In this document: piece by piece, positions 33,157 to 50,103 of the stretch
Numbering within the stretch: the first letter of the stretch is position 1
Layout of the letters: every line of letters starts with the position of its first letter
Origin: a bacterium
Lineage (GTDB): Bacteria; Myxococcota_A; UBA9160; UBA4427
Reading direction: 5' to 3'
Assembly: GCA_024742285.1 (NCBI GenBank)
Contig: JANSYR010000012.1
Location: forward strand, 162,260 to 226,259
DNA: 64,000 bases
The notes under the pieces: generated by a model
Seen by the model: only the letters and a program-made list of their open reading frames with translations
Databases searched by the model: none
Told to the model about the DNA's origin: nothing
Position numbers and translations under genes: made by a program

Positions 33157-35928
33157 TCATCCGTCGCCGTTGCTCGGAATCCCGCCCCACTCGGGGAAGC
33201 GCTCGGTCAACCCGTCTCGAAGCACCTGCTGGGCCTCGCCGAGTCCGCTCGGCGCGAATCGACTTCCCGCGATCCGATCCAGCGACTCGATCGTCGTCTG
33301 GATCATGAACCCCGCCCGCGAGCACGCGATCCCCCGCCGAAGGGCTTCGAGGCTCTCGATCGGATCGTCTCGCAGTAGGGTGAACTTACCGAGATCGAAC
33401 CACGCCCACGGCAGATTGATTTCTGCCGCGGCCTGGTCACGGCAGCGCGCAGTCGCGCGCTCGATGTCCATCGCCCGGGCGCTCGGGAAGTCGACGTCCG
33501 GCGTGAGCGCCATCTCCATCTCGAGCAACCCCCACAGAGCATAGGGGTCACCCGGATCGAGCGTATGGGCGCGCCCGTAGTATTCACGCGCGCGTTCTCC
33601 CTCTCCGCTGCGCTTGAGCGTTCCGGCGAGTGAGGCCATCGCGTCGGGGTCCGCATGCACGTCGGCCGCGGCCCGTGTGAGTAGGGCCTGACCCCTCTGG
33701 TGAGCAGCGGACTCGGGTTCGAGCCGGTGCTTCTGGCAGATCGCGACGCCCATGTCACGCAACGCGGGTTGGTATCCCGCCTCCGCATGCGACTCGAGGG
33801 TCTCGATCGCGCGGTCCCAATCCTCGATGCTGATCGCGAGCTTGGCGAGACGCACGGCGACGCTGGGGTCGGGATCGTATTCGAGGACCTTGTCGAGGAT
33901 GTCGATCTCGCGAAGGGTCTCTTCGAGGGTCAGCTGCGCGGGGTAGGTCGTTCGGTAGGTGCGGAAACCGGCGCGAAGTCGCGAGAAGGAGACGTCGACT
34001 GCCTGGAGGACCCGCGAGAGTTCATCGAGCTCCTGGCGCCAGCGTTCGGGAAGCGGCAGCGGAACGTCTCGGCCCATCTCGTGATTCACGTTCGCCCAGG
34101 CATCTTCCAGAACGGTCCGTACCTCGATCTCGGCTTCGAGCCCGCAGACTTCGTTCGGCACCTTCACGCCGAGCACGCTCTCGGCGGCCTTCGCTCGCGT
34201 TTCGTCGAGGCTGACGACGAGGCGCACGGGATGGTATCCCGAGCCGAGCACCTGAGCGGCGACGTCGCTCTGGTCGATGCTCTTCGATTCGACCTCGAAG
34301 TAGCGCTCGATGAAATGAACGATCCGGGTCGCTTGTTCGCGAGTGTGGACCACCACCCTTCCTCCGCACAGGTCGGGCAGCGCCTCCACCAGGTCGCCGC
34401 TGCGCTGGAGAATCTCGGCAACCCGCGCGACCGACTTCGCGCGCGTTTCGATCAGTGAAAGGGGCGCATGGTCGCGTACGCCCGCTTCGAGGATGCGTTC
34501 CAGGACACCTGCGAACCGCTCGTACCGAGGGCGGATCCGGTTGAACCGACGGATCTCGTTGTCGAGCGAGTGCTGGGCCTCGTGCTGCGATCGCCGTTCG
34601 CCACTGATCCCGGCATCGGAGACGGATCGGGTGTTCGCGCCCGGAAGCGGCGAGTCCCCACGGATCTCCCAGGCCTCGTAGAGCGCATCGGCATCCGGGC
34701 TCAGGTCCCCGTAGCGAAGGGCATAGGTCGTTTCGAGCAGTCCCTGGAGTTCGCGGACACTGCCTGGCCAGCTGTGAGCGGACAGGATCGAGATGATTTC
34801 GGAAGACAGCCTGGCGTCGGGTTGCTGGGTCACCTTCTCGCGCCAGATCTCCTGCGCATGGGCTTCGATGTCATCGCGACGCTCGGCGAGGCCCGGGACT
34901 CGAATGACCACTCGAGCCAGACGTTGGGCCAGGTCATCGCGGAACTCGCGATGCCGCGCCATCGCGAAGAGCTCCCGGTTCGTGCTCGCGATCATGCGCG
35001 CCGACACCGGGATGTTCTCTCGACCGCCGATGCGCCGGACGGTGCCCTCCTCGAGCGCCCGCAGGATCTTTGCCTGGTGTGGAAGGCTCAGCTCACCGAC
35101 TTCGTCGAGGAGAAGAGTTCCTCGCTCCTTGCTGGCGAGCTCCCAGAGCCCGACGCGCGCGGCGACCCCCGTTGCCGCATCGGGTGCGACACCGAAGAGT
35201 TCTGCCTCGAACATGTCGGGTGCGATCGCCGCGCAGTTCACGTCGACGAACCTGCCCCCCGCGGCGCCTCTCCCGAGATGGTGGATCGCCTTCGCGACGA
35301 CTTCCTTGCCCGCACCGGTGGGGCCGAGGATCAAGACCGGAACGTCGGCGAACTCCCGGGCATTCGCGGCAACCTCGATCAATCGCCTGACCTTCTGAGC
35401 CGCAGGAGATTTGCCCTTGAAGGTCTCCCGCCAATCCATCGTGCCTTCGGCCCACTCGTCGAGTCGGGCCTCTCCCTGGTGGGCAGGCTGGTCCGGGAAA
35501 CCCTCCGTAGGCTCACCGTGCTCACGAACGTCATCGGGAGCCTCGGCTGCCAGTTCGTCGAAGAGATCCTGTGAAACGCCGAGGAAGTGAAGGCTTCGAT
35601 CCCCGGCCCGCTCTTCCTTCAGAAGAAAGTTGCGGACACTCGTCAGGAGCTTCGCGGCCGTCTTGTAGTTTCCGTCGAGCGCGACCGGCTTCTCTCCCTT
35701 GAGATACGCAGCCAGGCCCTTCCTGGGGTCGCGTGCCTTGAGCGGAGCGATCCGACCGCTCGCCCCCTTGGATCGCATGAGCCTTCCTAGTGCCGACGTC
35801 TCCATCACGAAGATCAACGGGCGCGGACCGGACTCGAGGAGCACGTCGATCCGATCGGCCTCGACCGGGCAGATCCGAAGCGTTTCGGTCGTCTCTTCTC
35901 TGGAAAGCTCGAGGGCGAACTCGCTCAT
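33157..35928 (-). CDS. NtrC-type AAA+ protein fused to RelA/SpoT-like domain and TPRs
   Basis: A 923-residue protein. Residues 1-130 are an unassigned N-domain. Residues 170-400 are a bacterial-enhancer-binding AAA+ domain: Walker A GPTGAGKE (202-209), ELFG, Walker B LLLDEVGEL (272-280), and HSWPGSVREL near 385. The sigma-54-contact GAFTGA is degenerate (DAATGV, 250-255). Residues 465-650 match the RelA/SpoT nucleotidyltransferase: DLCGGRVVV (519-527), GYHPVRLVV (564-572, usual Y.S.H) and EIEVRTVLEDAWANVNHE (600-617, usual EIQIRT...W...H). Residues 680-900 are TPR-like. No HTH is seen. It is divergent from the Ub/Pup operon, so it may regulate it, or synthesise an alarmone. Confidence 0.75.
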   Translation of the reverse strand: MSEFALELSREETTETLRICPVEADRIDVLLESGPRPLIFVMETSALGRLMRSKGASGRIAPLKARDPRKGLAAYLKGEKPVALDGNYKTAAKLLTSVRNFLLKEERAGDRSLHFLGVSQDLFDELAAEAPDDVREHGEPTEGFPDQPAHQGEARLDEWAEGTMDWRETFKGKSPAAQKVRRLIEVAANAREFADVPVLILGPTGAGKEVVAKAIHHLGRGAAGGRFVDVNCAAIAPDMFEAELFGVAPDAATGVAARVGLWELASKERGTLLLDEVGELSLPHQAKILRALEEGTVRRIGGRENIPVSARMIASTNRELFAMARHREFRDDLAQRLARVVIRVPGLAERRDDIEAHAQEIWREKVTQQPDARLSSEIISILSAHSWPGSVRELQGLLETTYALRYGDLSPDADALYEAWEIRGDSPLPGANTRSVSDAGISGERRSQHEAQHSLDNEIRRFNRIRPRYERFAGVLERILEAGVRDHAPLSLIETRAKSVARVAEILQRSGDLVEALPDLCGGRVVVHTREQATRIVHFIERYFEVESKSIDQSDVAAQVLGSGYHPVRLVVSLDETRAKAAESVLGVKVPNEVCGLEAEIEVRTVLEDAWANVNHEMGRDVPLPLPERWRQELDELSRVLQAVDVSFSRLRAGFRTYRTTYPAQLTLEETLREIDILDKVLEYDPDPSVAVRLAKLAISIEDWDRAIETLESHAEAGYQPALRDMGVAICQKHRLEPESAAHQRGQALLTRAAADVHADPDAMASLAGTLKRSGEGERAREYYGRAHTLDPGDPYALWGLLEMEMALTPDVDFPSARAMDIERATARCRDQAAAEINLPWAWFDLGKFTLLRDDPIESLEALRRGIACSRAGFMIQTTIESLDRIAGSRFAPSGLGEAQQVLRDGLTERFPEWGGIPSNGDG

Positions 35929-36260: not shown

Positions 36261-36276
36261 TGGTACGTGCCGTGCA
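36261..36276 (+). promoter_or_regulatory. Sigma-54 (-24/-12) promoter candidate
   Basis: TGGTACGTGCCGTGCA matches the sigma-54 consensus TGGCACGNNNNTTGCW at 10 of 12 fixed positions with exact GG-to-GC spacing. It lies 77 bases before the ATG at 36353, the first gene of the Ub/Pup operon. Two direct ACTCAAC repeats (36201-36207 and 36211-36217) about 45-60 bases upstream could be activator sites. The divergent gene encodes an NtrC-type AAA+ domain, the class of protein that activates such promoters. Confidence 0.55.
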
Positions 36277-36352: not shown

Positions 36353-36979
36353 ATGGCGCAGCTCTTCGTTCCCAGCACGATCGAAGACGGATCTCAGGAT
36401 TGGTCGGTTCTGCCGTTGCCGGTGAATCTCTACCGGCTCTCCTCTTCGAGCTCGAAGTCCCGTCTCGATTCAAGGCCGAAGCGGCTCGTCGAGTCACTCA
36501 CGATCGATGCTGTCGAGTCAGTGGACGCCGAACGGATCGCCAGCGATGGAGCGCTCCTGATCCGGTATGGCGAGTCGCCCCGCGAGTCGAAGGCGTCGAC
36601 GCCAGCGGTCGCGTCGGGGGGCTGGGCGATTCTCTGGGAGCCGGGAAATCGGATCAGCATCAACGGCGTCGCGACCGCGACGGGTGTCGCCATCCTGCGG
36701 AATCGCGATGAGATCGCTCTCGATGGTGGTTCCCGGCTGTACTTCTCGACCGAGCGTCTGGCGGCGGTCGAGACCTACGTCGACGCGGACTCGCCTCGTT
36801 GTCCCCGATGCACTCTGCCGATTGAGCGCGGTGAGCGCTACGTGCGATGTCCCGGCTGCAGCGTGCTTCACCACCAGGAGTCGGATCGGGAGTGCTTCAC
36901 CTACTCGTCCACTTGCGCGCTCTGCGACCAGCCGACCTCGCTCGATACCGGCTTTCGCTGGTCGCCGGAGGGGCTCTAG
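36353..36979 (+). CDS. RING-like zinc-finger protein, candidate E3 of the operon
   Basis: A 208-residue protein. The ATG at 36353 follows GGAG and is preferred over upstream in-frame codons, which are Arg-rich and overlap the promoter. Residues 75-145 look like a beta-sandwich (GGWAILWEPGNRISINGV, LRNRDEIALDGGSRLYF), compatible with an FHA-like fold. Residues about 148-195 are a treble-clef/RING-type finger: CPRC, CPGC, a His pair in SVLHHQESDREC and CALC. Prokaryotic RING-like domains in E1-E2-Ubl operons have been proposed as E3s. Its stop abuts the GTG of the E1 gene (no gap). Confidence 0.65.
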   Translation: MAQLFVPSTIEDGSQDWSVLPLPVNLYRLSSSSSKSRLDSRPKRLVESLTIDAVESVDAERIASDGALLIRYGESPRESKASTPAVASGGWAILWEPGNRISINGVATATGVAILRNRDEIALDGGSRLYFSTERLAAVETYVDADSPRCPRCTLPIERGERYVRCPGCSVLHHQESDRECFTYSSTCALCDQPTSLDTGFRWSPEGL

Positions 36980-38143
36980 GTGTCGACGCGGGGAAACGCA
37001 TTGGCTGGCTCTCTCGCCGCGACGCTCGAGGCGATCGAGGTCCACAAGCTGGTCTCGGGGCAGGGCCTGCAGTCCATCGCGGGGAACGAGGTGCTCTTCG
37101 ACGCCAGCGTCCCGACGCATCTGGTGACGCGCCTCGTCCGCAATCCGGATTGTCGGTTCTCGCACGAGCGATTCGAGTTGCGCGACGCCCGGATCCGGAC
37201 CCTGGGCGAGGCCCTCGCGCTGGTGCCGGGACCGCTTGCCGACAAGCGCCTCTGGGTCCCCGACGATTCCTTCGTCTCGCGGCTCGTCTGCGTCGCCTGC
37301 GCTGCCGAGGCGAAGCTCTGTTGCCTTCGCGGCTCGATCGGGGAGGATGGGACCGCTTGCCCGGACTGCGGGCAGCCTCGGGCGATTCGGGGATTCGACC
37401 TGCGAGAGCGGGTGCTGGGGCGTGATCTCCGTTCCGAAGACCTCGCCCGGCCGCTCGCGGAGCTCGGTCTCCGCGAGCACGAGGTCTTCGGTGTCGAGTC
37501 GGCGTCGTCGGGGCCTCGATACTTCGTCCTCGCGGATAGTCGGCTGCCGGCGAACGACGCGTCGGGCGTGACGCTCTTGATCGCGGGGCTGGGCAACATC
37601 GGCTCCTTCCTCGTTCCGCTCGTGGCGAGGATGGAGCCCATCGCGCGCCTCGTGCTCGTCGACCCGGACGTCTACGAGCCGGACCAGCAGCTCGGTCAGG
37701 ACGTCGGGGCCGCCGCAGCCGGTCGTCCGAAGGTCGAGGTCCAGGCCGAGCGCGCGCTCGCGATCCGGCCCGAGCTCGAGCTCGAGACCTTCGCCGAGCG
37801 GGTCGAACGGCTGCCTCTGGGCAAGCTCCGGGGCGCCATCGTGGCGAGCTGCCTCGACAGCCGCGCAGCCCGCCTCCAGCTCGCCTCGCGCGTCTGGCGC
37901 GTCGGGAGCCCCTTCGTCGACGCAGCCGTCGGCGGCGGATCGAGTCTCCTCGTTCGAACGAACGCCTACCGGCCGGGGCCTGACGTCGCCTGCTTCGAAT
38001 GTGAACTCGACGAGACCGACTACGCGTCGCTCGATCAGGTCTTTCCCTGCGAGGGGGCGGCCCCCGGTTCGGAGGACGACGGGCCGCACGCGTTCTCCGT
38101 CGAATCCGAAACCCAGCCCTCTGCGGGCTCCGCAACCGTCTGA
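36980..38143 (+). CDS. ThiF/E1-like activating enzyme, apparently circularly permuted
   Basis: A 387-residue E1-type adenylating enzyme starting at a GTG directly after the previous stop. The nucleotide half is C-terminal: GLGNIGS (203-209), VDPDVYEPDQQLGQ (227-240), GRPKVEV (248-254), SCLDSRAARLQLA (290-302) and CFEC (338-341) plus Cys357. The frame ends just after QPSAGSATV. The N-terminus instead reads GSLAATLEAIEVHKLVSG (10-27), NEVLFDA (36-42) and RNPDC (54-58), which normally follow that point in ThiF proteins. A zinc site CVAC...CPDC (104-130) joins the two. The Arg-finger motif NRQ is LGQ here, so an Arg is missing. It should activate the Ubl for the adjacent E2. Confidence 0.75.
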   Translation: MSTRGNALAGSLAATLEAIEVHKLVSGQGLQSIAGNEVLFDASVPTHLVTRLVRNPDCRFSHERFELRDARIRTLGEALALVPGPLADKRLWVPDDSFVSRLVCVACAAEAKLCCLRGSIGEDGTACPDCGQPRAIRGFDLRERVLGRDLRSEDLARPLAELGLREHEVFGVESASSGPRYFVLADSRLPANDASGVTLLIAGLGNIGSFLVPLVARMEPIARLVLVDPDVYEPDQQLGQDVGAAAAGRPKVEVQAERALAIRPELELETFAERVERLPLGKLRGAIVASCLDSRAARLQLASRVWRVGSPFVDAAVGGGSSLLVRTNAYRPGPDVACFECELDETDYASLDQVFPCEGAAPGSEDDGPHAFSVESETQPSAGSATV

Positions 38144-38157
38144 CCCGAGGTCGAACC

Positions 38158-38670
38158 GTGGACGAGATTCTGAACTCCTTCTTGAAGAGCCAGCGCGAGG
38201 AAGGCCTCCGGCTCGCCGCCGAGAGCGATCTCCTCGAGCTGATCCCCGCGGACGACAGCTGCTTCGTCGCGATCTTCTCGTGCAAGGGGCTGGTGCGCGC
38301 CGCGGAGGGCGAGGTTCGCGAGCGCGATCACTTCGAGGTCGGTATCCGCTTTCCAGAGGACTACCTGCGGTACGTCGATCCGAGCGTGGTCCTCACCTGG
38401 CTCTCTCCGTCCGAGATCTGGCACCCGAACATCCGCGCCCCCTTCATCTGTCTCGGCCACATCGCGCCGGGGACGCCGCTCGTCGATCTCCTCCATCGGT
38501 GCTTCGAGATCATCACCTTCGACAACGTCACCATGCACGAGGGCGACGCGTTGAACCCGCACGCGTGCGCGTGGGCTCGGCACAACCGCGAGCGCTTTCC
38601 GGTCGACACGCGCCCGATCAAACATGGCTCGTCGAACGCGGGCGTCGAGTTCCTGGAGGTGGGATCGTGA
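38158..38670 (+). CDS. E2-like ubiquitin-conjugating enzyme
   Basis: A 170-residue protein starting at a GTG 14 bases after the E1 stop. The UBC-fold signature is IWHPNIRAPFICLGHIAPGT (about 87-106): His89-Pro90-Asn91 motif and catalytic Cys98 seven residues later, as in eukaryotic E2 enzymes (HPNI...G.ICLD). A preceding strand-strand unit VGIRFPEDYLRYVDPSVVLTW fits the E2 beta-sheet, and LVDLLHRCFEIIT is the usual crossover helix. It should accept the Ubl from the E1 as a thioester. Its stop overlaps the next GTG by 4 bases. Confidence 0.82.
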   Translation: MDEILNSFLKSQREEGLRLAAESDLLELIPADDSCFVAIFSCKGLVRAAEGEVRERDHFEVGIRFPEDYLRYVDPSVVLTWLSPSEIWHPNIRAPFICLGHIAPGTPLVDLLHRCFEIITFDNVTMHEGDALNPHACAWARHNRERFPVDTRPIKHGSSNAGVEFLEVGS

Positions 38671-39398
38671 TTCGCTCCGTGGAACGACGCGAGGACGGTT
38701 GGGTGGTTCGCGACGGTCCCTTGCCGAACGCTGCGGCTTCTCGCCCCGGCGGCAGCGATCTCGCCGAGCTGCTCGTCGAGACGAGTGATGCGCCCGGTCC
38801 CGACTTCAAGGTCGTGGCCGATGGCGCGTCGGGGCTCCGGCTCCGAGCCGAGCGGCACGAGTCCGATACGCCGACCACGGCGGGTTCGCTCGATTTCCGC
38901 GCCGGACGCGAGCACGACGGCGCGGATGCGAAGAGCTGTCCGGCTTCCTTCGATCTCGAGGGTCTGTGCCGCGAGGCGGGCTGGCCCTTCGAGGCTCGTT
39001 CCGACGGCGCGCTGGTGGTCGATCTCGGTGTCCGCGACGCCTACGTGCCGGCAGTCGTCGAGGCGCGCTCCTCTGTCCTGTCCGTCGAGGCGCCACTCGT
39101 CTCGAACCTTCCGGGCGAGGGGGCGCGGCGCAAGGCCGTAGCCGCGCTCCTGCTGCGGGCCAACGGAGCCTTTCGGATGGTGTGCGGTCGGATGCGTTCG
39201 TGCGGCGAGCGCTGCGAGGCGCTTCTCGAAGCGAAACTGCCCGCGACCGCGAACGCGTCGGAGCTGGAAGTTGCGCTCGGTTCCGTTGCGATTGCGGCCA
39301 GGCACTGTGCGATCGAGGCGCGGATGCTCGCAACCGACGAACGGGTCGCGCGGGCCTATCTGCAGATCAGTGGCGAGGTCGGCGGGGACGCACCGTAG
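38667..39398 (+). CDS. YbjN/CesT-like helper protein of the Ub-like operon
   Basis: A 243-residue protein starting at the GTG in the GTGA overlap with the E2 gene. Residues about 95-235 have a one-helix, antiparallel-sheet, long-helix pattern: LCREAGWPFEARSDGALVVD, AVVEARSSVLSVEAPLVSNL, KAVAALLLRANGAFRMVCGR, then helical LEVALGSVAIAARHCAIEAR. This resembles YbjN or type III chaperone (CesT-like) folds, which bind and present other proteins. The assignment is tentative. Translational coupling to E2 argues for a partner of E2 or the Ubl. Confidence 0.6.
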   Translation: MIRSVERREDGWVVRDGPLPNAAASRPGGSDLAELLVETSDAPGPDFKVVADGASGLRLRAERHESDTPTTAGSLDFRAGREHDGADAKSCPASFDLEGLCREAGWPFEARSDGALVVDLGVRDAYVPAVVEARSSVLSVEAPLVSNLPGEGARRKAVAALLLRANGAFRMVCGRMRSCGERCEALLEAKLPATANASELEVALGSVAIAARHCAIEARMLATDERVARAYLQISGEVGGDAP

Positions 39399-39462
39399 GT
39401 GGGTTCCAGGCTTCGCCGGCCATACCGGGCGGAAACGTCCACAACAGAAGGAGGAAATGGAG

Positions 39463-39744
39463 ATGGAATCAGCAACCGCAACGCTGGATCTCTTCGCTCG
39501 CGACATGACCGGGCAGAAGCGATTCCGGCTGAGCAAGGTGCCGTTGAAGGCGAGCGTCGGCGAGATCGTTCGCGGCGCGGTCGCCCGCATGGGCCTCAGC
39601 GTGGAGGATCGCGACGGTCGCGAGCTCGACTACCGCGCCCGCAGCGAGCGGGAAGGACGGCAGATCCAGAACTCGGAGCGCGTCGGCGACGCACTTCGCC
39701 CCGATGACGAGATCGTCCTGACGCCTCGAATCAGTGCCGGCTGA
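39463..39744 (+). CDS. Ubiquitin-like modifier (beta-grasp, C-terminal AG)
   Basis: A 93-residue protein. AAGGAGG lies 9 bases before the ATG at 39463; the ATG at 39457 is too close. Strand patterns follow the beta-grasp fold: LDLFARDMTGQKRFRLSKVP, VGEIVRGAVARMGLSVEDRD, DYRARSEREGRQIQNSERVG, DALRPDDEIVLTPRISAG. The VGDAL..DDE.VL segment matches bacterial Ubls encoded with E1 and E2. The C-terminus ends Ala-Gly instead of Gly-Gly and is exposed without further residues, so it would need no processing. It is the likely substrate of the E1-E2 pair. Confidence 0.78.
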   Translation: MESATATLDLFARDMTGQKRFRLSKVPLKASVGEIVRGAVARMGLSVEDRDGRELDYRARSEREGRQIQNSERVGDALRPDDEIVLTPRISAG

Positions 39745-39835
39745 GAGCTGGAGGGTCCTGGCTCGCGCGTCGAGCGAGTCAGGGCCCGAGGAGTCGGGAT
39801 TCGCGAATCGAATCGGTCAGGAGAGGGCCTAGACC

Positions 39836-40924
39836 ATGTCCGGAGCAGAACGAACGGCGAGTGCAACGACGCCCCTGCGCGGGTCCCAGAGCAGGGGCTA
39901 TCGCTACGCAATCGAGTACATGAAGCAGGACGGCACGCATCTCGGTGTCGTTCCGATCGAGCCCGACTTCGAGCCGACGATCGATTGGACCTACTTCCTC
40001 GGAGTTCGGCGTGCCGAACTGCCCGCCGTGGTCGACTCGGCGGAGGGGGTGGTTTCGCCGCTTTGGAGCAACGAGCTGGGCGAGCCCTATTGCCACGGCT
40101 TCCGGGTCGAGGTGACGAAGCGAGGCGGGGGCCGGGTGGTCCACTGCGATTTTCCGGAGAGCTTCTTTCAGCGCCTTGCGGACGCTGGATCGGCAGAGTG
40201 GTTCGAGAAGGGCGATCTCGAGCCCGGTGAGCGATACGCCTACCGGGTCTGTGCCTACCCGATCGCCTCCGATCTGTCCGAGGGCCGCCCCGTTGATTCC
40301 GCGCTGGAGGCCGCAGCCTCGTTCGAGGTCGAAGCCGTCCCGGAGCCGATTCCGCTCGTCGAGAGTCGTCTCGAAACGTTCGCGGAACGGGCAGAAGCCG
40401 ACGAAGTGCACGTCGAAGGCGAGATGCCCGTCTTCATCGTCCGCTCCGTGATCGACGAGGCGTGTGATCTCGCGCGAAGCGCGGGTCGGAACGAGACCGG
40501 CGGCATCCTCATCGGCCACATCCACCAGGACCCGACGAAGCCCGAGGTGTTCGTCGAGATCACCGCGCAGATCCCTGCACGACATGCCGAAGCCTCCGAG
40601 TCGAGCTTCTCCTTCACGCACGACACCTGGTGCGCGGCGGACGCCGCAGTCCAGCTTCGCGGGCGCGGCGAGTCGTTTCTCGGTTGGTGGCATTCGCACC
40701 CTCGCTGGTGCAATCCGGAGTGCCCCGAGACGCGCCGGAAGGATTGCGTTCTGGCGCGCCCCTTTTTCAGTGCGGACGACATCCATCTGCATCGCGTCTG
40801 CTTCCCGCATCCGTATCAGGTTTCGCTGCTGATCAGCGATCTCCCCGAGTCCGGACCGTCCCCGGCGCTCTTCGGCTGGCAGGCAGGGGCGATCTCGGCG
40901 CGTGGCTACTTCGCGATGCCGTGA
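39836..40924 (+). CDS. JAMM/MPN metalloprotease (deconjugase)
   Basis: A 362-residue protein. Residues 1-190 are an unassigned N-terminal domain with beta content (FEPTIDWTYFLGVRRAELPA). Residues 197-335 are a JAMM domain: Glu220 in NETGGILIGHI, HSHP (286-289) and FFSADD with Ser312 and Asp315, giving the E, H-x-H and S..D zinc set. Between HSHP and the Asp lies an unusual Cys-containing insert (WCNPECPETRRKDC, 291-304), possibly a second zinc site. Such enzymes remove ubiquitin-like tags from targets. Confidence 0.82.
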   Translation: MSGAERTASATTPLRGSQSRGYRYAIEYMKQDGTHLGVVPIEPDFEPTIDWTYFLGVRRAELPAVVDSAEGVVSPLWSNELGEPYCHGFRVEVTKRGGGRVVHCDFPESFFQRLADAGSAEWFEKGDLEPGERYAYRVCAYPIASDLSEGRPVDSALEAAASFEVEAVPEPIPLVESRLETFAERAEADEVHVEGEMPVFIVRSVIDEACDLARSAGRNETGGILIGHIHQDPTKPEVFVEITAQIPARHAEASESSFSFTHDTWCAADAAVQLRGRGESFLGWWHSHPRWCNPECPETRRKDCVLARPFFSADDIHLHRVCFPHPYQVSLLISDLPESGPSPALFGWQAGAISARGYFAMP

Positions 40925-40994
40925 GAGAGATGCGAAGCCCGTCCAGTTCATCGAAAAGAATCGAGCCGAGAGACCCCAACCCCAGGAGTAGAAG

Positions 40995-42587
40995 ATGCCC
41001 AGGCTCCAGCGAAACCAGACCCCCGACAGCTCGCTACCGACACCGACGGCGCTCCTCGAGGAGAACCAGCAGCTGATGGCTGCGCTCGAACAGGCGCAAG
41101 CGACGCAGACGAAGCTGCGCGAGCTGATCGAACAGATCACGGCCGCCCCCTGGTTCCCGGCTCTCTTCCAGAAGCTGGTCGATACGCCACAGGGGATGCG
41201 CGCGATGGTTTGGGTGGGGGCGATGCCACGCCTCGTCAATTTGCACCCCTCCGTCGACGGTCCGACGTTGCCCTCGGGCAGCAACGTCTACCTCGATCAC
41301 GAGCAGGCGACGCTGATGGCGGCAGCGAAGGGGGCCTTCGTGACGCCCACCGAGTCGGCGACCTTCGAGCGGCTCACGCAGGACGGACGGGTCGTCGTAC
41401 GTTCGCGAGACGAGGAGATCGTTCTCGAACGAGCGGCTTGTCTCGACGATCGCGAGTTCCGATCGGGTAGCAAGGTGCTCTTCGATCGGCCCTCGCGGAT
41501 CGCGCTCGAGACGATGGATGGAGTAGAGGGCAAACAGTATCAGCTCGAGGATCTCGGTGAACTCTCCCGCGGCGATGTCGGGGGCCATGCGCAGACCCTC
41601 GACGATCTGATCTCGCTGTTCTCGGCGAGTCTCGTCGAGCCCGAGTTGGCACGTCTCTATCGGATGACCGGCCGACGCGCCGCACTCATGTACGGTCCGC
41701 CCGGGTGTGGCAAGACGTTGATGGCCAAGACCGCGGCTGCCGAGATCCAGCGCATGACGGGCAAGCGCTGCCGGTTCGCGGTGGTCCGGCCCGGGGAGTT
41801 CGAGAGCAGCTACGTCGGCGAATCCGAGGCCAACATCCGCGCCTGTTTCCGGTCGCTTCGCGAGGCTGCGGGCGACGACATGGCCGTTCTCTTCCTCGAC
41901 GAGATCGAGTCGATCGGTCGGATCCGGGGCGGCGCCGGTGGACGTCACCAGGATCGCTTCCTGGCCGCTCTGCTCGCGGAGATCGACGGCTTCTGCGAGC
42001 GCGGGAAGGTGTCGATCCTCGCGGCCACCAACCGCCGCGACCTGCTCGACCCGGCGCTTCTGTCGCGGCTCGCGGATACCCAGATCGCCGTTCCGCGCCC
42101 GAACCTCCAGGCCGCACGCGAAATCCTCGCGATCCAGCTGCCGGTCTCGCTCCCCTACTACGAGATGGCTGAGGCGGAAGCGGACGGGCAGTCCGCGGCA
42201 GAGGCGCGGAGCCGCGTGATCGAGACGGCGATCTCGCGTCTGTACCCCCCGAACGCGGACAACGAAGTGTCCCGCCTCACGCTTCGTGACGGGACCCAGC
42301 GGACCGTCCACGCGCGGGAGCTCATGAGCGGCCGACTCCTCGATCAGATCGCCCTCTCCATCCGCGAAAAGGCCTTCCGCCGGCATGTCGCTGGAGACGA
42401 CGGCGGTCTCCGCATCCCGGATGCGCTCGCCGCGGTGGAGACCTGCCTCGCCGAACTCTCGACGACGCTCACCGTCCACAACGCGCGCGCCTATCTCGAC
42501 GACCTGCCGCAGGACGTCGACGTCGTGCGCGTCGAGCCGATTCGCACCAAGCCCGAACGGAGGCACCGCTACTACAATGCCGCCTGA
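40995..42587 (+). CDS. ARC/Mpa-like AAA+ ATPase
   Basis: A 530-residue AAA+ protein of the proteasome-ATPase style. An N-terminal helix rich in Gln/Glu (about 18-50, LEENQQLMAALEQAQATQT) is a predicted coiled coil; in Mpa this part binds Pup. Residues 65-180 look like the OB-fold region. The AAA+ core has Walker A GPPGCGKT (234-241), ESSYVGESEANI, Walker B VLFLDEIES (298-306), AATN (343-346) and Arg358. The C-terminus RHRYYNAA lacks the HbYX/GQYL proteasome-docking tail. CAGGAG precedes the ATG. It probably unfolds tagged proteins for an unknown partner; no 20S subunits are present here. Confidence 0.78.
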   Translation: MPRLQRNQTPDSSLPTPTALLEENQQLMAALEQAQATQTKLRELIEQITAAPWFPALFQKLVDTPQGMRAMVWVGAMPRLVNLHPSVDGPTLPSGSNVYLDHEQATLMAAAKGAFVTPTESATFERLTQDGRVVVRSRDEEIVLERAACLDDREFRSGSKVLFDRPSRIALETMDGVEGKQYQLEDLGELSRGDVGGHAQTLDDLISLFSASLVEPELARLYRMTGRRAALMYGPPGCGKTLMAKTAAAEIQRMTGKRCRFAVVRPGEFESSYVGESEANIRACFRSLREAAGDDMAVLFLDEIESIGRIRGGAGGRHQDRFLAALLAEIDGFCERGKVSILAATNRRDLLDPALLSRLADTQIAVPRPNLQAAREILAIQLPVSLPYYEMAEAEADGQSAAEARSRVIETAISRLYPPNADNEVSRLTLRDGTQRTVHARELMSGRLLDQIALSIREKAFRRHVAGDDGGLRIPDALAAVETCLAELSTTLTVHNARAYLDDLPQDVDVVRVEPIRTKPERRHRYYNAA

Positions 42588-44163
42588 ACTTCGACGACTT
42601 CGGTCGGTCCCCAAGCTCGTGGGGGCCGACTTCGAGCTCGGCAACTTCATCCTCGGCCTCGAGGCCCGCGATGGGACAGGACGCGAAGCCTCTCGCGCGC
42701 TGCTCGCCGAGGTCGATGGCGTCCCCGCGAAGAACCGCTCCTACCGCTCCTCAAGCAGCGTCGTGTCCTACGACGGGTTCGGCGGGGAGTACGGTGGGGC
42801 TTACGGCTACGGCTGGGGCGACTGGTACGGGGGGAGCGCGCGCGATCCCCAGGATCAGGGCCGGGTCTTCCTCGAGAGCAACGGCGCAAGCGTCTACATC
42901 GACCTGGATCATCTCGAATGTGCCGTGCCGGAGGTGCTGAGCGCCTTCGACCTGGCTGCGGCGTCGGCGGCCATGCTTCGGATCGCGCGCGAGGCACAGG
43001 TGCGCGCCAACGAGAAGCTCCCGGCCGGGCAGAGCTTGCAGGTCTTGATCAACAACTCCGACTCGCTCTCTCACAGCTACGGGTCGCATCTCAACTTTCT
43101 CGTCAGCCGCGCTGCCTGGGAGGACATCCTCGAGCGTCGCCCCCATTTCTTGCAGTTCCTCGCGACTCACCAGCTGTCTTCGATGATTTACTCCGGGCAG
43201 GGGAAGGTGGGCTCCGAGAACGGCCGTCCCGACGTGAACTACCAGATCTCCCAGCGCGCGGACTTCCTCGAGACGGTCGCAGCGACGCAAACCACGTTTC
43301 GTCGTCCGATCGTGAATGCCCGGGACGAGACGCTTTGCGGCGATAGCGGCGAGCTCGCGCGTCTGCACTGCATCAGCTTCGACAACACTCTCTGCTTCGG
43401 GGCCAGCATCCTCAAGGTCGGCGCGATGCAGATCGTGCTCGCGATGATCGAGGCCGAGGACGTCGACACCCGGTGCTCGGTCGACGACCTCGTCGGCGCC
43501 GCCGTCGCATGGAGCCACGATCCGAGCCTCGAACGGCGTGTTCGCCGGGTCGAGGGCGGGGAAGCGACGGCGATCGAAACGCAGCAGCGGATCCTCGAGC
43601 ACGCGTTCGCCCATCGAGATCGCCACGGCTTCGAGACCGTGCCGCGCGCCGACGAGATCCTGGCGCTCTGGGACGACACGCTCTCGAGGCTCGCGGGCGG
43701 CGACCGCGACGCGCTCGCGGGCCGCATCGATTGGATCCTCAAGGAGCGGATCCTCGAGCGTGCGCTCGAGCAGCGCGATGATCTCGACTGGAAGTCGCCG
43801 GAGCTCAAGTACCTCGATCAGATCTACAGCAGCCTCGATCCCGAGGAAGGTCTCTTCTGGCCCCACCTGCGTTCGGGGCTGGTGGAGCGCTGGATCAGCG
43901 AGGAAGAGATCGAGCGCTTCCTGCACGAGCCGCCCGAGAACACGCGCGCGTGGACCCGCGCGATGGTTCTGCGCCGCTTCGAGCGGCACGAGATCCTGAA
44001 GGTCGACTGGGACGAGATCACGATCCTGCTCGATACGAGGACCGGGCGGCAGGAGTTCACGCTCCGCCTCGATGACCCGCTCGGATTCACCCGCGCCACT
44101 TCCGAAGCGCTCTTCGAGCGCGAAACCCAAACCCCAGAAGGAGACTCCAATGCGAACGCGTGA
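42577..44163 (+). CDS. dop: Dop-like deamidase/depupylase (PafA/Dop family)
   Basis: A 528-residue member of the PafA/Dop glutamine-synthetase-like superfamily. The first motif is LVGADFELGNF (14-24, usual G.ETE..), the aspartate motif is NGASVYIDLDHLECAVPE (Asp109), and INNSDSLSHSYGSHLNFLVSR, GQGKVG, YQISQRADFLE, NARDE and LHCISFDNTLCFG follow in Dop order. A Gly/Tyr-rich segment (about 66-86, FGGEYGGAYGYGWGDWYGG) sits where Dop has its extra loop. By family role it would convert the Pup C-terminal Gln to Glu and remove Pup. It overlaps the AAA+ gene by 11 bases and the pup gene by 14. Confidence 0.8.
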   Translation: MPPELRRLRSVPKLVGADFELGNFILGLEARDGTGREASRALLAEVDGVPAKNRSYRSSSSVVSYDGFGGEYGGAYGYGWGDWYGGSARDPQDQGRVFLESNGASVYIDLDHLECAVPEVLSAFDLAAASAAMLRIAREAQVRANEKLPAGQSLQVLINNSDSLSHSYGSHLNFLVSRAAWEDILERRPHFLQFLATHQLSSMIYSGQGKVGSENGRPDVNYQISQRADFLETVAATQTTFRRPIVNARDETLCGDSGELARLHCISFDNTLCFGASILKVGAMQIVLAMIEAEDVDTRCSVDDLVGAAVAWSHDPSLERRVRRVEGGEATAIETQQRILEHAFAHRDRHGFETVPRADEILALWDDTLSRLAGGDRDALAGRIDWILKERILERALEQRDDLDWKSPELKYLDQIYSSLDPEEGLFWPHLRSGLVERWISEEEIERFLHEPPENTRAWTRAMVLRRFERHEILKVDWDEITILLDTRTGRQEFTLRLDDPLGFTRATSEALFERETQTPEGDSNANA

Positions 44164-44359
44164 CCTGAACCAGAACGACCAGCGGAATGTGACCCCCGAC
44201 ACCGGGGCCGCTCCGACGGGCGCCGGACCGTCGGCGATCGACGAGACCCGGCGCCGCGCGCAGCGGTTGCTGGACCTCGCCGACGACACGATCAGCCAGG
44301 CGCTGTCCCAGAACAGCGAGCGGTTCCTCGCCCAGAACCGCCAGCAGGGAGGTCAGTAG
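44150..44359 (+). CDS. pup: Pup-like modifier protein ending in GGQ
   Basis: A 69-residue protein with AGAAGGAG 6 bases before the ATG. The N-terminus is disordered (Asn, Pro, Gly, Thr rich). The C-terminal part DETRRRAQRLLDLADDTISQ through NSERFLAQNRQQGGQ matches Pup: a helical region followed by the di-glycine and a terminal glutamine. Mycobacterial Pup also ends GGQ and needs Dop deamidation before ligation. It is less acidic than mycobacterial Pup. Its position between dop and pafA is the classic arrangement. Confidence 0.85.
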   Translation: MRTRDLNQNDQRNVTPDTGAAPTGAGPSAIDETRRRAQRLLDLADDTISQALSQNSERFLAQNRQQGGQ

Positions 44360-44361
44360 AC

Positions 44362-46860
44362 ATGATGGACGAGACCCTCTTCGGAATGGAGACCGAGTTG
44401 GCCTTCTCCGCCTTGCGAATCGGCGAGGAAGACCCGAACCAGGAGATCCTGTTCGATCTCCCGCGGCCCATGCATTCCGCCGTCTCGTCCACCGTTGCAG
44501 ATCTGCTCGTCGCCGACTTCTTCAAGCTGGCCGACGAGCAGATCTGCTCCCTTCGCGACTATCAGACCAACGGGATCTATCTCGCCAACGGGTCGCGCCT
44601 CTATTTGGACGCGGGTCGTCACCCCGAGTTCTGCACGCCGGAGTGCCGAAGCCCTGAAGAGCTCGTACGGTGGCAGCTCGCCGGCGAGCGGATCCTCGCG
44701 GGGCTCGTCGAAGATCTCGCCATCCTGCGCCCCGACCACGCCTTCGCCCTGTTTCGCTGCAACGTCGACTACGGCGGGATGCAGAGTACGTGGGGCTGCC
44801 ATGAGAGCTACCAGCATCGATCCGACGAAGTGCAGATGAGCCGACATCTGATCCCGCATCTCGTCTCACGAATCATCTACACCGGCGCGGGCGGGCTCAA
44901 CAACCGCATCGACCGCCCGCAGTTCCTCATCTCGCCGCGCGTTCCCCACCTGATGCACACGGTCGGAGCAGACTCTCAGCACGAGCGCGCGCTCTATCAC
45001 ACGAAGGACGAACAGCTCGGGGAGAGCGACTTCCACCGCCTCCACCTCATCTGCGGCGAGAGCAACTCGTCGCAGCTTTCGACCTACCTCAAGTTCGGCA
45101 CGACGGCGCTGATCGTGCGCCTGATCGAGGCCGGGCTCTGCGAGGGAGGGGAGCTGGGTTTCGATCGGCCCCTCGAGGTGATGAACCGGATCGCGCGCGA
45201 CGTTCGTTGCGAGAAAGAGAGCCGCGTCTCGGGCGGTCGGCGTCTCACGGCGATCCAGATTCAGCGCGAGTACCTCGCGATGGTGGAGGAGCAGCTCGAT
45301 GCGGACTTCATGCCCGATTGGGCTCCGCGCGTCTGCGAGCGCTGGCGCGAGGCGCTCGACGACCTCGAGAACGACTCGCCTTCGCTCTCGACGCGTCTCG
45401 ACTGGAAGATCAAGCACGCTCTCTTCGAGGACCGCCTCGAGCGACGAGGCACGTCGTGGAGCGAGCTGACGAGATGGGAGGGGCTCGGAGCCGAGCTCTG
45501 CGAGATCGACACGCGGTTCGGAGAGCTCGGATCGGCGGGTCTTTTCCGACGCCTCGACGAGGCTGGGGCACTCGAGCATCGCCTGTCGGAGCTCGGCAGC
45601 GTCGAGGAGGCGATGGAATCGGCGCCGCCCGGCGGGAGGGCGGAGGTCCGCGGTCGTGCGATCCGGGAGCTCCGAGAGAAGGACGACTCCGGTCGCTACC
45701 GCTGTGGATGGGAAGCCATTCTCGACGACGAGGAGGGCCGCACCTTCGACATGTCCGATCCCTTCGGCCGGAACGCAGAATGGCGCGACGCCGATCTGGG
45801 CTGGCGGCGGCGCTCTCCGCATTCCCGCTTCCGCCACAACCTGCTCGACGAGCTGAACCAGGGCGTCGGTCTTTACAGCGGCTGCATGTTCAGCGACGCA
45901 GTCGAGCGACTCGCTGCAGTCGCCCAACGCGCCCGGGCTGCTGGGGAGCACGAGATCGAGTCTCAGGCGCGTTTCTGGTCGGCGTCGGCCTATCACGACG
46001 CCGGACGGCTTCGGCAGGCGGAACGTGTGCTCTCGCCGATTCTGGAGACCGTCGTGGAGAACGCCAGCCTCGAAACGGCCTGCCGCGTGCTGACGCGACA
46101 CGCCGTGATCCTGATCGACGGACCGGCCGAGCGCTCCCGGATCGAGGAGTCGATCGCGCGAGCGCGGCGTTGCATGGAGGAGGGCGACGGCGTCCGCGGC
46201 GCTTCGCGGATCGCGCTGGCGGAGGCACGGCTATTTGGCGCGATCGGAGACTACGGCTCGGCGATCCTGCGAATGGAGGAGGCGCTCCGGCTCGAACGAG
46301 ACGACTACATCTCGTTCGCCAGGAGCTCTCACCAGCGCTGGATGATCTACTACCTCCTGCGAGTGAAGCGGTTGGATCGGGCCAACTTCTACCTCGAGGA
46401 GTGGTTCGACGAGGTCAAGCGGGGCGTCGGACGCCCCGAGAGCCGGATCATGTTCCATTGCGCCGAGTCCCTGATCGCGCGCGCTCGGGGAGATCACGAC
46501 CGCGCCTTCGAGCGCGCTCGCGATGCGGTCGAGCACGCCGAGGGCGCCGATCGCAATCGCTACCGAACGAGCGCGAGATGCGCTCTCGTCGAGAGCGCGA
46601 TCGAGGTCGGCGATCTCAATGCCGCGCGGCCGCACGTCGAGGCCCTCGAGAGGTGGGAGGAAATCGAGATCGGGGAGCAGCATTGCGACGTCCACCTCGT
46701 CACGGCGGCCTACCACCGGGCTGTGGAGGGACGGGAACGTGAGGCCAAGGCCGTGCTCGCGGAGGCGGCCGCGCTGGGTGTCGCTCGTCGGATGGATCGC
46801 CTGCTGGGCACGCGCCATCACGAGAGGGAGATGGGGGAGGGGTTGCGGCCTGTGGGGTAG
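44362..46860 (+). CDS. pafA: PafA-like Pup ligase with C-terminal TPR-like extension
   Basis: An 832-residue protein starting 2 bases after pup, with its ribosome site (GGGAGG) inside the pup end. Residues 1-470 are the ligase: LFGMETELAFS (6-16), NGSRLYLDAGRHPEFCTPEC (76-95, catalytic-region Asp83), NVDYGGMQSTWGCHESYQH, TGAGGLNN, LHLICGESNSSQLSTYLKFG and TTALIVRLIEAG. PafA ligates deamidated Pup to lysines. Residues about 490-830 are extra: helical repeats of TPR type (ARFWSASAYHDAGRLRQAER, ARARRCMEEGDGVRGASRIA). Usual PafA is about 450-500 residues. The tail may select targets or link to the Ub-like branch. Confidence 0.85.
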   Translation: MMDETLFGMETELAFSALRIGEEDPNQEILFDLPRPMHSAVSSTVADLLVADFFKLADEQICSLRDYQTNGIYLANGSRLYLDAGRHPEFCTPECRSPEELVRWQLAGERILAGLVEDLAILRPDHAFALFRCNVDYGGMQSTWGCHESYQHRSDEVQMSRHLIPHLVSRIIYTGAGGLNNRIDRPQFLISPRVPHLMHTVGADSQHERALYHTKDEQLGESDFHRLHLICGESNSSQLSTYLKFGTTALIVRLIEAGLCEGGELGFDRPLEVMNRIARDVRCEKESRVSGGRRLTAIQIQREYLAMVEEQLDADFMPDWAPRVCERWREALDDLENDSPSLSTRLDWKIKHALFEDRLERRGTSWSELTRWEGLGAELCEIDTRFGELGSAGLFRRLDEAGALEHRLSELGSVEEAMESAPPGGRAEVRGRAIRELREKDDSGRYRCGWEAILDDEEGRTFDMSDPFGRNAEWRDADLGWRRRSPHSRFRHNLLDELNQGVGLYSGCMFSDAVERLAAVAQRARAAGEHEIESQARFWSASAYHDAGRLRQAERVLSPILETVVENASLETACRVLTRHAVILIDGPAERSRIEESIARARRCMEEGDGVRGASRIALAEARLFGAIGDYGSAILRMEEALRLERDDYISFARSSHQRWMIYYLLRVKRLDRANFYLEEWFDEVKRGVGRPESRIMFHCAESLIARARGDHDRAFERARDAVEHAEGADRNRYRTSARCALVESAIEVGDLNAARPHVEALERWEEIEIGEQHCDVHLVTAAYHRAVEGREREAKAVLAEAAALGVARRMDRLLGTRHHEREMGEGLRPVG

Positions 46861-47142: not shown

Positions 47143-49839
47143 ATGGCGACGACGACGAAGCCCGGCCCGCTCGTCACCCTAGTCACGGGTGACGTCACGA
47201 TGGATTGGAACGTCGCGCACATCCGCCGCCAATCCGTCGCCTCTATCAGCTGGAGCGGTGAGGATGTGGCTCGTCTCTGCTGGCAACGCGGTGGTGCGGC
47301 TCTCGTGGCTGATCTGGTTTCGGCCGTCGCTTCGCGCGTCGCGAAAACGAGTTCGCTCGAGATCGAGCTGCACTCGGTGGCCGCACCGAGTGAGGCACCG
47401 AGTCCGGCGGAGACAGGCTTCACGCGCTCGCATGCCCGATGGTCGCCCTTCAGTGATGGCAAGGCGGACAATCGAAAGCGCTGGCGTGTCTCGGATTTTC
47501 TCGGTCTGGACGTCATCTCCTCGGAATCGACGGTGGGGAACGGCTCGTGCGCACGAGTGGATCGCGACGAGCCTGGCGCCCCCGAGATCGTCGTCCTCGA
47601 CGATGCCGACCTGGGCTTTCGCGACGATCGCGATCTCTGGCCGAAAGCCATCGTCGACTCCGAGCAGCGTCCCTGGATCGTGCTGAAGATGTCCAGACCC
47701 GTGGCGAGTGGGCGGCTCTGGGACGAGCTCATTCGTTATCACGCCGAGCGACTGATCGTGATCGTCACGATCGGAGACCTGCGGCGAACCGCAGTGCAGG
47801 TGAGTCATGGGGTCTCCTGGGAGGAGACGGCTGAGGACCTCACCTGGGAGCTCACGTTCAACCCCGACGTCAACGGCCTATCGCGCTGCGCCCACGCCAT
47901 CGTTTCGCTCGACACTGCCGGTGCGATGCTGCTCACGGGTGGCACGGAGCAGCCCGCCAGGGCGGAGCTTCTCTTTGATCCGAAGTGCATGGAAGGCGAG
48001 TGGACTGAAGGGCGGCGGGGGGGAATGATCGGCAACACGGCGACGCTCACGGCGGCGATCGTCCGATCGTTGTTTCTCGACCCTGAAGAGCCCGATCTTG
48101 TTGCCGGGATCCGAGCCGGCATTTCGGCCATGCGCGACCTTTTTGAGCTGGGATACGAGGCTGGAGACCCCAGCCGCCCCGAGCTTCGGTTCCCCATCGA
48201 CCGAATCGCCGACCGAATCTGTAGTGCGACCGATCATGAACGCACCGGAGCAGAGGCTCTCGCGATTGCGACGGTGCAGCCGCCCCTCCGCGAGCAGCGG
48301 ATCTCGCGGAATCTCGCTGCAGGCACAGCCACCGAAGATCGCGACGGCGAGTGGCGGATCCTCGCGCAGGCTCACGGCGGCGACCTCGATCGTCTCGCCG
48401 CCGAGATCGTGCTCCATGGACTCGAGCATACGCTTCGGGGGATCCCCCAAGCCCGATTCGGCGGGCTCCGAACCGTCGACCGGCGAGAGATCGAGGCTCT
48501 CCGCTCGATTGGTGGCCTGATCACCCAGTACTGCAGAGGTCGGGAAACCCGGCCACTTTCCTTCGCCATCTTCGGGCCGCCGGGTGCAGGGAAGTCCTTT
48601 GCCGTGAAGCAAGTCGCCGAGTTCGTTCAGCCGGGAACGATCGAGCCGGTCACGTTCAACCTATCGCAGCTCGACGGTCCTTCCGATCTCCTGGGAGCCT
48701 TCCACCAGGTCCGCGACATCAGTCTGAAGGGGAAGCTTCCGCTCGTCTTCTGGGACGAGTTCGACACCAGTCTCGCCGGAGATCCGCTCGGGTGGCTTCG
48801 CTACTTCCTTGCGCCGATGCAGGACGGAGAGTTCCAGGAAGGTCAGATCACGCATCCGATCGGTCGTGTGATCTTCGCCTTCGCGGGTGGAACCGCGGAG
48901 CGGATGAGTGCGTTCGGCAAAGGCGTTCCGGCCGAGCGGCAGAAGGCCCTCAAGCTCCCGGACTTCACGAGCCGCCTTCGCGGCTTCCTCGACGTCCTCG
49001 GACCAAATCGTCAGACGACGACTCGAAGCACGGACCCCTACTTCGTCATCCGGAGAGCGATCCTGCTTCGGTCGCTCTTCGAGAGGGTGACGGGGCAGGT
49101 CATCCGCAATGGAGAGCTCCAGATCGATCGGGGCGTGCTGCGTGCACTGCTCCGCGTCGAGACCTATCGGCACGGTGCGCGCTCGATCGAGTCTCTGCTT
49201 TCGACGAGCCTGCTCGTCGGCGAGAGCCGCTTCAATCGCTCCTCGCTGCCTCCGGAGGCTCAGCTCGACCTCCACGTCGACGCGCAGGAGTTTCTGGCGC
49301 TCGTCCACCTGCTCGAGCTCGAAGGGGAGCTGCTGGACGGCGCTGCCCGCGCGATCCACGATGGCTTCTGCCGCAGTCGCGAGGCCGACGGGTATCGGTT
49401 CGGGGAGAAGACCGACGATGCGGCGATGACGCATAGCGCGCTCAGGCCCTTCGACGAGCTTCCGCTGAACGAGCAGGAGCAGAATCGCGACGCGGCGCGC
49501 GACATCCCCCGCAAGCTGGCGACGCGTCGCTACGTGATGATGCCCGACCGTCGCGACGAATCACGCTTCGAGTTCCCGAATGATGACCTGGACGCGCTCG
49601 CCGCGGCCGAGCACCAGCGTTGGATGGACAAGAAACTCGTGGACGGGTGGACCCCGGCGCCCGAGCTCGAGGTGCCCGACAAGGACAATAAGCGGCATCC
49701 GGATCTGGTTCCCTACGAGGATCTCTCCGACAAGGAGCAGGAGAAGGACCGGGAGCAGATTCGCGAGCTCGTCGATGTCCTTGCGGCGGTTGGGTACACG
49801 GTTGTGCGCCTCCGGGATCGCGATCCAGGAACCAACTGA
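47143..49839 (+). CDS. AAA+ ATPase with N-terminal kinase-like and C-terminal RyR domains
   Basis: An 898-residue protein. The N-terminal 320 residues have a LVTLVTGDVTMDWNV start and IVVLDDADLGFR and LIVIVTIGDLR strands, possibly a PfkB/ribokinase-like fold; this part is tentative. The central AAA+ domain has Walker A GPPGAGKS (478-485) and Walker B LVFWDEFD (535-541). The C-terminus (about 817-895) is a RyR domain: AAAEHQRWMDKKLVDGW, HPDLVPYEDLSDKEQEKDR and LAAVGY. RyR domains in bacteria occur in conflict systems and are proposed to sense nucleotide signals. It lies 282 bases after pafA in the same direction and may belong to the same module or be separate. Confidence 0.72.
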   Translation: MATTTKPGPLVTLVTGDVTMDWNVAHIRRQSVASISWSGEDVARLCWQRGGAALVADLVSAVASRVAKTSSLEIELHSVAAPSEAPSPAETGFTRSHARWSPFSDGKADNRKRWRVSDFLGLDVISSESTVGNGSCARVDRDEPGAPEIVVLDDADLGFRDDRDLWPKAIVDSEQRPWIVLKMSRPVASGRLWDELIRYHAERLIVIVTIGDLRRTAVQVSHGVSWEETAEDLTWELTFNPDVNGLSRCAHAIVSLDTAGAMLLTGGTEQPARAELLFDPKCMEGEWTEGRRGGMIGNTATLTAAIVRSLFLDPEEPDLVAGIRAGISAMRDLFELGYEAGDPSRPELRFPIDRIADRICSATDHERTGAEALAIATVQPPLREQRISRNLAAGTATEDRDGEWRILAQAHGGDLDRLAAEIVLHGLEHTLRGIPQARFGGLRTVDRREIEALRSIGGLITQYCRGRETRPLSFAIFGPPGAGKSFAVKQVAEFVQPGTIEPVTFNLSQLDGPSDLLGAFHQVRDISLKGKLPLVFWDEFDTSLAGDPLGWLRYFLAPMQDGEFQEGQITHPIGRVIFAFAGGTAERMSAFGKGVPAERQKALKLPDFTSRLRGFLDVLGPNRQTTTRSTDPYFVIRRAILLRSLFERVTGQVIRNGELQIDRGVLRALLRVETYRHGARSIESLLSTSLLVGESRFNRSSLPPEAQLDLHVDAQEFLALVHLLELEGELLDGAARAIHDGFCRSREADGYRFGEKTDDAAMTHSALRPFDELPLNEQEQNRDAARDIPRKLATRRYVMMPDRRDESRFEFPNDDLDALAAAEHQRWMDKKLVDGWTPAPELEVPDKDNKRHPDLVPYEDLSDKEQEKDREQIRELVDVLAAVGYTVVRLRDRDPGTN

Positions 49840-50103
49840 ACAGGCTCGGCGGGGCTATTTCCCGGGTTCGTTGGATTGGGCCATGCGCGTTCCCGGAGCT
49901 TCCGTGTGACAGGTGTCAGGGGCATCGTTCCTCGTCGAGGCCTCTCGCGCCCTTCGAAGCCTTCTCGTGAGCTTCTGCGCTGGGTGCAGTCGCCGGTCTC
50001 CCTTCGATGGTTGGCCGCATCTTCGGCATAATGAGTAGGGCTTGCCGTCAGGGGTGCCCGGCTCGTTCGGTCGCCGGCTCCGTCTCATTTCACACGTGGT
50101 GCC

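Follow-up and report, generated by a model that had tools for sequence, protein, structure and literature searches.

The 64,000-nucleotide stretch of DNA analysed here (the window; positions 162,260 to 226,259 of contig JANSYR010000012.1, assembly GCA_024742285.1, from a bacterium of the Myxococcota_A) carries an operon at positions 36353-46860 that is predicted to encode two chemically unrelated protein-tagging systems, one ubiquitin-like and one based on Pup, around a single AAA+ ATPase. As originally predicted, the operon consists of ten closely spaced open reading frames, all on the + strand (neighbours overlap slightly or lie no more than 91 bp apart), in the order RING, E1, E2, gene 4, ubiquitin-like protein (Ubl), JAMM, Mpa/Rpt-like AAA+, Dop, Pup, PafA. 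An even chance is given to the reading that this is a sporadic, recurrent cassette in which both tags are read by one unfoldase, by a mechanism that we infer and set out below.

The ubiquitin-like half starts with a RING-type E3 candidate of 208 residues (36353..36979), in which the zinc ligands C150, C153, C166, C169, C181, C188 and C191 are invariant in the alignment. The window protein alone matched Prok-RING_1 weakly (expect value (E) 0.005, below the curated cut-off), and this domain was found in 8 of 8 family members. The N-terminal part of the protein lies outside any family assignment; an FHA domain, suspected in the protein by eye, was not found by Pfam.

The E1 (36980..38143, 387 residues; ThiF family, E 2.5e-16) has a single ThiF domain, with Cys357 (in VFPC) as the predicted catalytic residue, and is circularly permuted. 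Comparison with the E1s of loci L033-L037 gave two BLAST blocks in swapped order: residues 16-186 of the L033 protein align to residues 198-369 of the window protein (E 4e-47) and residues 182-364 to residues 2-183 (E 7e-21), with the breakpoint just after the predicted catalytic-cysteine loop. The permuted order is common to the window, L018 and L032, and the standard order was found in six further relatives besides L033-L037; since three different genomes carry the permutation, an assembly error is unlikely. A single origin of the permuted E1s was recovered in 24% of bootstrap trees. The E1 of L032 carries what seems to be a remnant of a duplicated joint near its C-terminus.

The E2 (38158..38670, 170 residues; UQ_con, E 0.0095) carries the HPN motif and the catalytic Cys98, which are kept in all relatives bar one with HPQ. 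With a profile of this family, 112 distinct PDB sequences were matched at E<=1, and the best 60 of the 112 were all E2s. The Ubl (39457..39744, 95 residues) was assigned to start at the ATG at 39457, a small correction of the original prediction. It had no Pfam match; in the predicted model (predicted local distance difference test (pLDDT) 90) it is a beta-grasp protein, and the best Foldseek matches were SUMO2 (2e-5), the Caldiarchaeum ubiquitin in complex with its Rpn11 homologue, and ubiquitin. A ubiquitin fold with a glycine C-terminus is predicted on this basis. Ala-Gly is present at the end of the Ubl in every complete relative: about half of the proteins end there and about half continue for another 1 to 11 residues, consistent with a precursor that the JAMM would trim. 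A lysine in the sequence GQK at the beta1-beta2 turn is kept in 13 of 16 Ubls and, by our reading of the topology, sits at the position of ubiquitin Lys11. The JAMM isopeptidase (39836..40924, 362 residues; Prok-JAB, E 3.4e-8) has E220, H286, H288, S312 and D315; the E, HxH and SxxD elements are present in all 18 aligned proteins, and the residues around HxH are altered in divergent members.

In the Pup half, the Mpa/ARC-like AAA+ (40995..42587; NCBIfam pup_AAA, E 1.9e-72; Pfam proteasomal-ATPase OB domain) has a short coiled coil and an OB domain and lacks the terminal GQYL. It overlaps the gene for a Dop-like deamidase/depupylase of 528 residues (42577..44163; Pup_ligase, E 7e-93), whose profile was nearer to Dop (1.3e-94) than to PafA (2e-58) in PDB. 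The signature GxExE of standard Dop and PafA is replaced by GxDxE in 18 of 18 operon Dops. The Pup-like tag (44150..44359, 69 residues) ends in RQQGGQ; when its profile was compared with 177,635 distinct PDB sequences, the top three matches were Pup, with a best E of 0.0066 and an alignment running through the GGQ end. The Pups of the relatives end in GG[QE], or in [TPS]G[QE] in L035, L149, L150 and L151; the last three loci, whose Pups end in PGE, SGQ and SGE, belong to a divergent branch of the joint system in planctomycetes. The last gene encodes a PafA-like Pup ligase of 832 residues (44362..46860; Pup_ligase, E 1.5e-89) with an intact GxExE, which is present in nearly all operon PafAs. 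The active-site Asp and His are spaced by two residues in the Dops and by three in nearly all PafAs (D-x3-H in the window protein), and this difference supports the two names. A C-terminal extension of about 350 residues, with weak TPR_19 matches, was found only in the window PafA and its nearest relative; the PafAs of the other relatives have about 500-560 residues.

In phylogenetic trees the operon Dops formed one clade (100/100) and the operon PafAs another (100/100), and the operon AAA+ proteins stood apart from standard Mpa; the three proteins thus appear from their sequences to be a distinct enzyme lineage. Two stand-alone genes, at L122 55-1983 (genome G232) and L123 2748-4550 (G344), encode a third, very divergent Pup-ligase paralogue. 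Taken together, profile searches, profile matches in PDB and the predicted structure upheld the gene assignments of the original prediction.

Gene 4 (38667..39398), between the E2 and the Ubl, had no family match by sequence and is also present in the relatives. In the predicted model (pLDDT 84, about 95 over the second half) residues 91-225 adopt a YbjN/type-III-secretion-chaperone fold, which matched the YbjN family with Foldseek (1.4e-4) and with VIA-align (Z 11.6, falling sharply to 5.5 outside that family). Folds of this kind bind flexible peptide segments, so the modelled protein can reasonably be supposed to act as an adaptor for substrates or tags.

The joined arrangement, predicted originally from this one locus, recurs in related and in distant genomes; with this and the upheld assignments, the original prediction withstood the refutation test set with it. 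The full set in the same order was found in the same bacterial order as the window (L018), in Planctomycetota (L033), in Acidobacteriota (L034), in an unclassified genome (L035) and in a deltaproteobacterial metagenome-assembled genome (L036); the operon of L037 (Verrucomicrobiota) is cut by the contig end, and L032 and L125 were joined across a contig break by their identical Ubl sequence. In Planctomycetota the joint system is present at L033, L144, L145, L146, L149 and L150.

To avoid finding only what was sought, whole phyla were searched in a second survey with the Dop profile alone. The scores were nearly bimodal (619-873 bits for the operon type and about 130-250 bits for the standard type); the one locus in between (G732, 365 bits) turned out to be of the standard Pup-20S kind, and Planctomycetota also had divergent joint loci with low scores. 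Among 12 new genomes of the joint type or the divergent branch, 9 had the ubiquitin-like half with the Pup half. The joint operon was contiguous in G400, G397, G434, G869, G403 and G650; the contigs of G836 and G576 appear to break inside it, and G985 has E2 to PafA on one contig and RING and E1 on another. A degenerate RING-E1 remnant lies beside Dop in G704, G949 is limited by its contig, and on the 12.6 kb contig of L147 (G435) the order of the operon-type PafA and Dop is reversed, and both Pup and the ubiquitin-like half are absent. All the standard Pup loci examined (L030, L126, L127, L129-L132, L148 and L177) are without ubiquitin-like genes. A chance neighbourhood of the two halves was rejected on the strength of this recurrence and of the Dop-only sampling. 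Across eight operons, the distances of the two halves gave a correlation (r 0.59, p 0.014) that depends on the window-L018 pair (r 0.23, p 0.24 without it).

Carriage as phage or plasmid cargo was considered and rejected: viral contigs gave no Dop match and plasmids no E2 match. Two Dop matches in plasmid records were distant and lay in actinobacterial records (one Nonomuraea, 11.8 Mb). The sole Dop match in a phage record (L128, MT835496.1) is an unverified, unannotated 159 kb scaffold named 'Bacteriophage sp.' with Mpa-, Dop- and PafA-like genes, and is possibly mislabelled bacterial DNA.

The two-tag, one-unfoldase reading starts from direct observations: the genes, their predicted folds and conserved motifs, their joint occurrence, the absence of GQYL and the lack of a detected 20S proteasome in most hosts. 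Activity in conjugation, a substrate common to both tags, the sequence of the steps and unfolding as the outcome are proposed as follows. The E1, E2 and RING proteins would attach the Ubl through its Ala-Gly end to chosen proteins, and chains may form via the GQK lysine. Dop would deamidate the terminal Gln of Pup, and PafA would couple the Glu so formed to lysines on these targets or on their attached Ubl. The folded Ubl would then provide specificity, and the disordered Pup the thread for the Mpa-like AAA+ ring to grip; gene 4 may serve as a chaperone-like adaptor presenting the targets. The ring would pull the target apart, with the JAMM and Dop as erasers of Ubl and Pup, respectively, working by analogy like Rpn11 and the Rpt ring of the 26S cap, minus the 20S chamber. 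The target would be forcibly unfolded or disassembled, or be passed to another protease. A stricter form, in which a target needs both Ubl and Pup before the AAA+ unfolds it (an AND gate), with JAMM and Dop as paired erasers (a 'regulatory particle without a core') and with the E1 as a natural permutant in the lineage, is offered tentatively, as roughly a one-in-four proposition.

One relative may show a second form of the two-tag design. At L020 8569-17201 (G232), the series RING-E1-E2-gene4-Ubl-JAMM-AAA is followed by a second tagging set (a ThiS-like Ubl, an unassigned protein, a PRTRC_A-like JAB and a PRTRC-type ThiF E1), with no Dop-Pup-PafA; L019 (G344) is apparently a decayed copy of this arrangement, as judged by eye. 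Because G232 swaps the Pup half for a second E1/JAB/Ubl set, 'one unfoldase, two tags' may be a conserved design, and the gene content suggests that the AAA+ requires a second tagging module of either chemistry.

Several points weigh against the two-tag reading. The change to GxDxE in Dop could weaken its activity; the Pup-less variant is one intact locus and thus thin evidence; most of the genomes are drafts, so that single absences of a 20S are weak, which the 14 absences described below are not when taken together; and cross-talk with a standard Pup-20S locus is possible in the window genome, G296 and G383.

An anti-phage or abortive-infection purpose, in which tagging and unfolding would activate or disarm a nearby effector such as the downstream AAA-RyR/SLATT pair, is compatible with the two-tag reading and is put at a little under even. 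TIR, NB-ARC, SLATT, RyR, NACHT and STAND neighbours in the window, L033, L034 and L173 favour it, as do the sporadic distribution and the placing of related Ubl modules in conflict systems by Kaur et al. (PMC7159879); against this, L036, L144, L146 and L150 are flanked by apparently ordinary genes, the RyR/SLATT pair is common to two loci only, and neither Dop nor PafA was matched by PADLOC. The original suggestion that the island points to defence fits the surroundings of the window, which are rich in conflict-type genes, and does not extend to the several relatives among ordinary genes; such a role is no more than plausible.

The replaceability of Dop-Pup-PafA, as a 3' block, by a different tagging module would also suit an arrangement in which one tag regulates the other system, Pup being attached to, and inactivating, the E1, E2, RING, JAMM or AAA+ or the Ubl modifying PafA or Dop, so that the second tag would be a regulator instead of another mark on the target. 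This is considered unlikely, at about one chance in five: the operon AAA+ is of the Pup-reading type by its pup_AAA match and is retained with the set, as would fit a Pup that brings substrates to it.

Less probable still is ordinary proteasomal degradation, with the AAA+ feeding a host 20S encoded elsewhere. Such a partner exists in three operon-bearing genomes (the window's own, G296 and G383), which have a 20S and, besides the operon, a standard locus with Dop or with Dop and PafA; on contig C22 of the window genome, PrcA, PrcB, Mpa, Dop, Pup and PafA form a standard locus, whose Pup ends in GGE and that of the operon in GGQ. The operon itself has no 20S subunits, and in the 14 other genomes with linked halves no 20S was found, only HslV or no proteasome-family protein assignable to 20S (with one short unassigned match besides in G985). 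Opening of the mycobacterial 20S depends on GQYL (PMC12288473); this terminal motif was present in 0 of 17 operon AAA+ proteins vs 4 of 4 standard Mpas, and most operon proteins have an HRYL-like motif plus extra residues in place of a terminal GQYL/HbYX. Because the AAA+ lacks GQYL and 14 operon-bearing genomes lack a detected 20S, the operon is not a proteasome system as known. Of the tagging model proposed originally, two tags around one AAA+ remains the best reading, and the usual degradation is the part left unsupported. Finally, two unrelated systems merely sharing an island rich in conflict genes, which do cluster, is an idea close to refuted by the same gene order and overlapping frames in several phyla, by the recovery of the ubiquitin-like half with Dop alone and by its absence from the standard Pup loci examined.

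Upstream of the operon lie a TPR-S protein and a fusion of a sigma-54-activator AAA+, RelA/SpoT and TPR regions (33157-35928, - strand), which is divergent from the operon and adjoins a candidate sigma-54 promoter, TGGTACGTGCCGTGCA (36261..36276, +), 76 bp 5' of the first gene. This weak site has two mismatches to TGGCACGN4TTGCW with GG/GC intact and is one of three such sites in the 64 kb; among 3000 shuffled versions of the intergenic region, 114 scored equally well, and the candidate is no more than suggestive. Searches for sigma-70 promoters and terminators found nothing beyond chance.

Downstream, the window encodes an AAA-RyR protein and a SLATT-like membrane protein, and after these a long WD40 protein of TIR/STAND-like type, a pair of FtsA paralogues and a protein of TIR-NB-ARC type. 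The AAA-RyR gene followed by the SLATT-like gene (47143-51732) was also found in L034 (1207-5996; Acidobacteriota), together with TIR genes; the two operons are distantly related, and the pair may be a separate conflict cassette. The FtsA paralogues (56324-57562 and 58228-60459) are placed in the conflict island beside the TIR-STAND-WD40-like gene, and the second has an N-terminal extension of about 330 residues of unassigned kind. The TIR-NB-ARC-APAF1-like protein (62270-64000) extends past the window end.

As a rule, ubiquitin-like tagging and pupylation are presented as distinct, convergent solutions to a single problem, and this conserved cassette keeps both, around an unfoldase of proteasome type. 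With no 20S chamber, it makes two questions testable: did tag-driven unfolding precede tag-driven degradation, and can two tags be read as one signal? If the reading is true, Pup would have a role independent of the proteasome, and the cassette would provide compact enzymes for tagging tools.

The coupling of the two systems, which had been thought unrecorded, is described in one sentence of Kaur et al. 2020 (eLife, PMC7159879), where a Ubl system related to the FtsH-ternary systems is coupled with the Pup system in Thermofonsia (Chloroflexota) and Planctomycetes and a link to target degradation is suggested. For Rhodopirellula and Plesiocystis, Iyer et al. 2008 reported a Pup not linked to a proteasome, with membrane-inserted ligases, a different arrangement. 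In the open-licence literature, no experimental study or fuller description of the joint Ubl-Pup system was found, and no paper on a circularly permuted E1 or on an anti-phage Pup system. What is new is the complete anatomy, the broad distribution, the lack of a detected proteasome in most hosts, the permuted E1 of the window and the relative in which the Pup half gives way to a second ubiquitin-like module.

Among the known systems that resemble the operon is the coupled system of Kaur et al., in which E1, E2, RING, JAB and Ubl genes likewise adjoin Pup conjugation genes and which also occurs in Planctomycetes; the passage on that system does not contain a gene-by-gene anatomy, an analysis of the Mpa-like AAA+, the proteasome status of the hosts, the permuted E1 or the spread to Acidobacteriota, Verrucomicrobiota and deltaproteobacteria. 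The FtsH-ternary systems (Kaur et al. 2020) share the RING, E1, E2, Ubl and JAB modules, but no vWA, MoxR, FtsH, EAD1 or caspase was found in the ten genes by Pfam/NCBIfam. With the Pup-proteasome system the operon shares homologous AAA-Dop-Pup-PafA genes in that order and, flanked by Dop and PafA, a Pup whose last residues are G[EQ]; it differs in lacking 20S genes and GQYL, in the GxDxE of Dop, in its distinct clades and in the joined ubiquitin-like half. Bil (BilABCD) and type II cyclic oligonucleotide-based antiphage signalling systems (CBASS) also group E1, E2 and JAMM genes in an operon, which in Bil includes a Ubl, and to these the present operon adds a RING, a chaperone-fold protein, an AAA+ and the Pup half. 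BilABCD has a tandem-Ubl BilA and an E1 with two adenylation domains (PMC11354881), whereas the operon Ubl is single-domain and its E1 has one ThiF domain; CBASS type II has a CD-NTase, a fused E1-E2 (Cap2) and a JAB (Cap3), whereas the operon has separate E1 and E2 genes and no CD-NTase. The 26S proteasome cap (Rpn11 and the Rpt ring) is alike by analogy only, with a JAMM isopeptidase next to an AAA+ ring of proteasome type; the operon lacks a core particle and has a second, unrelated tag.

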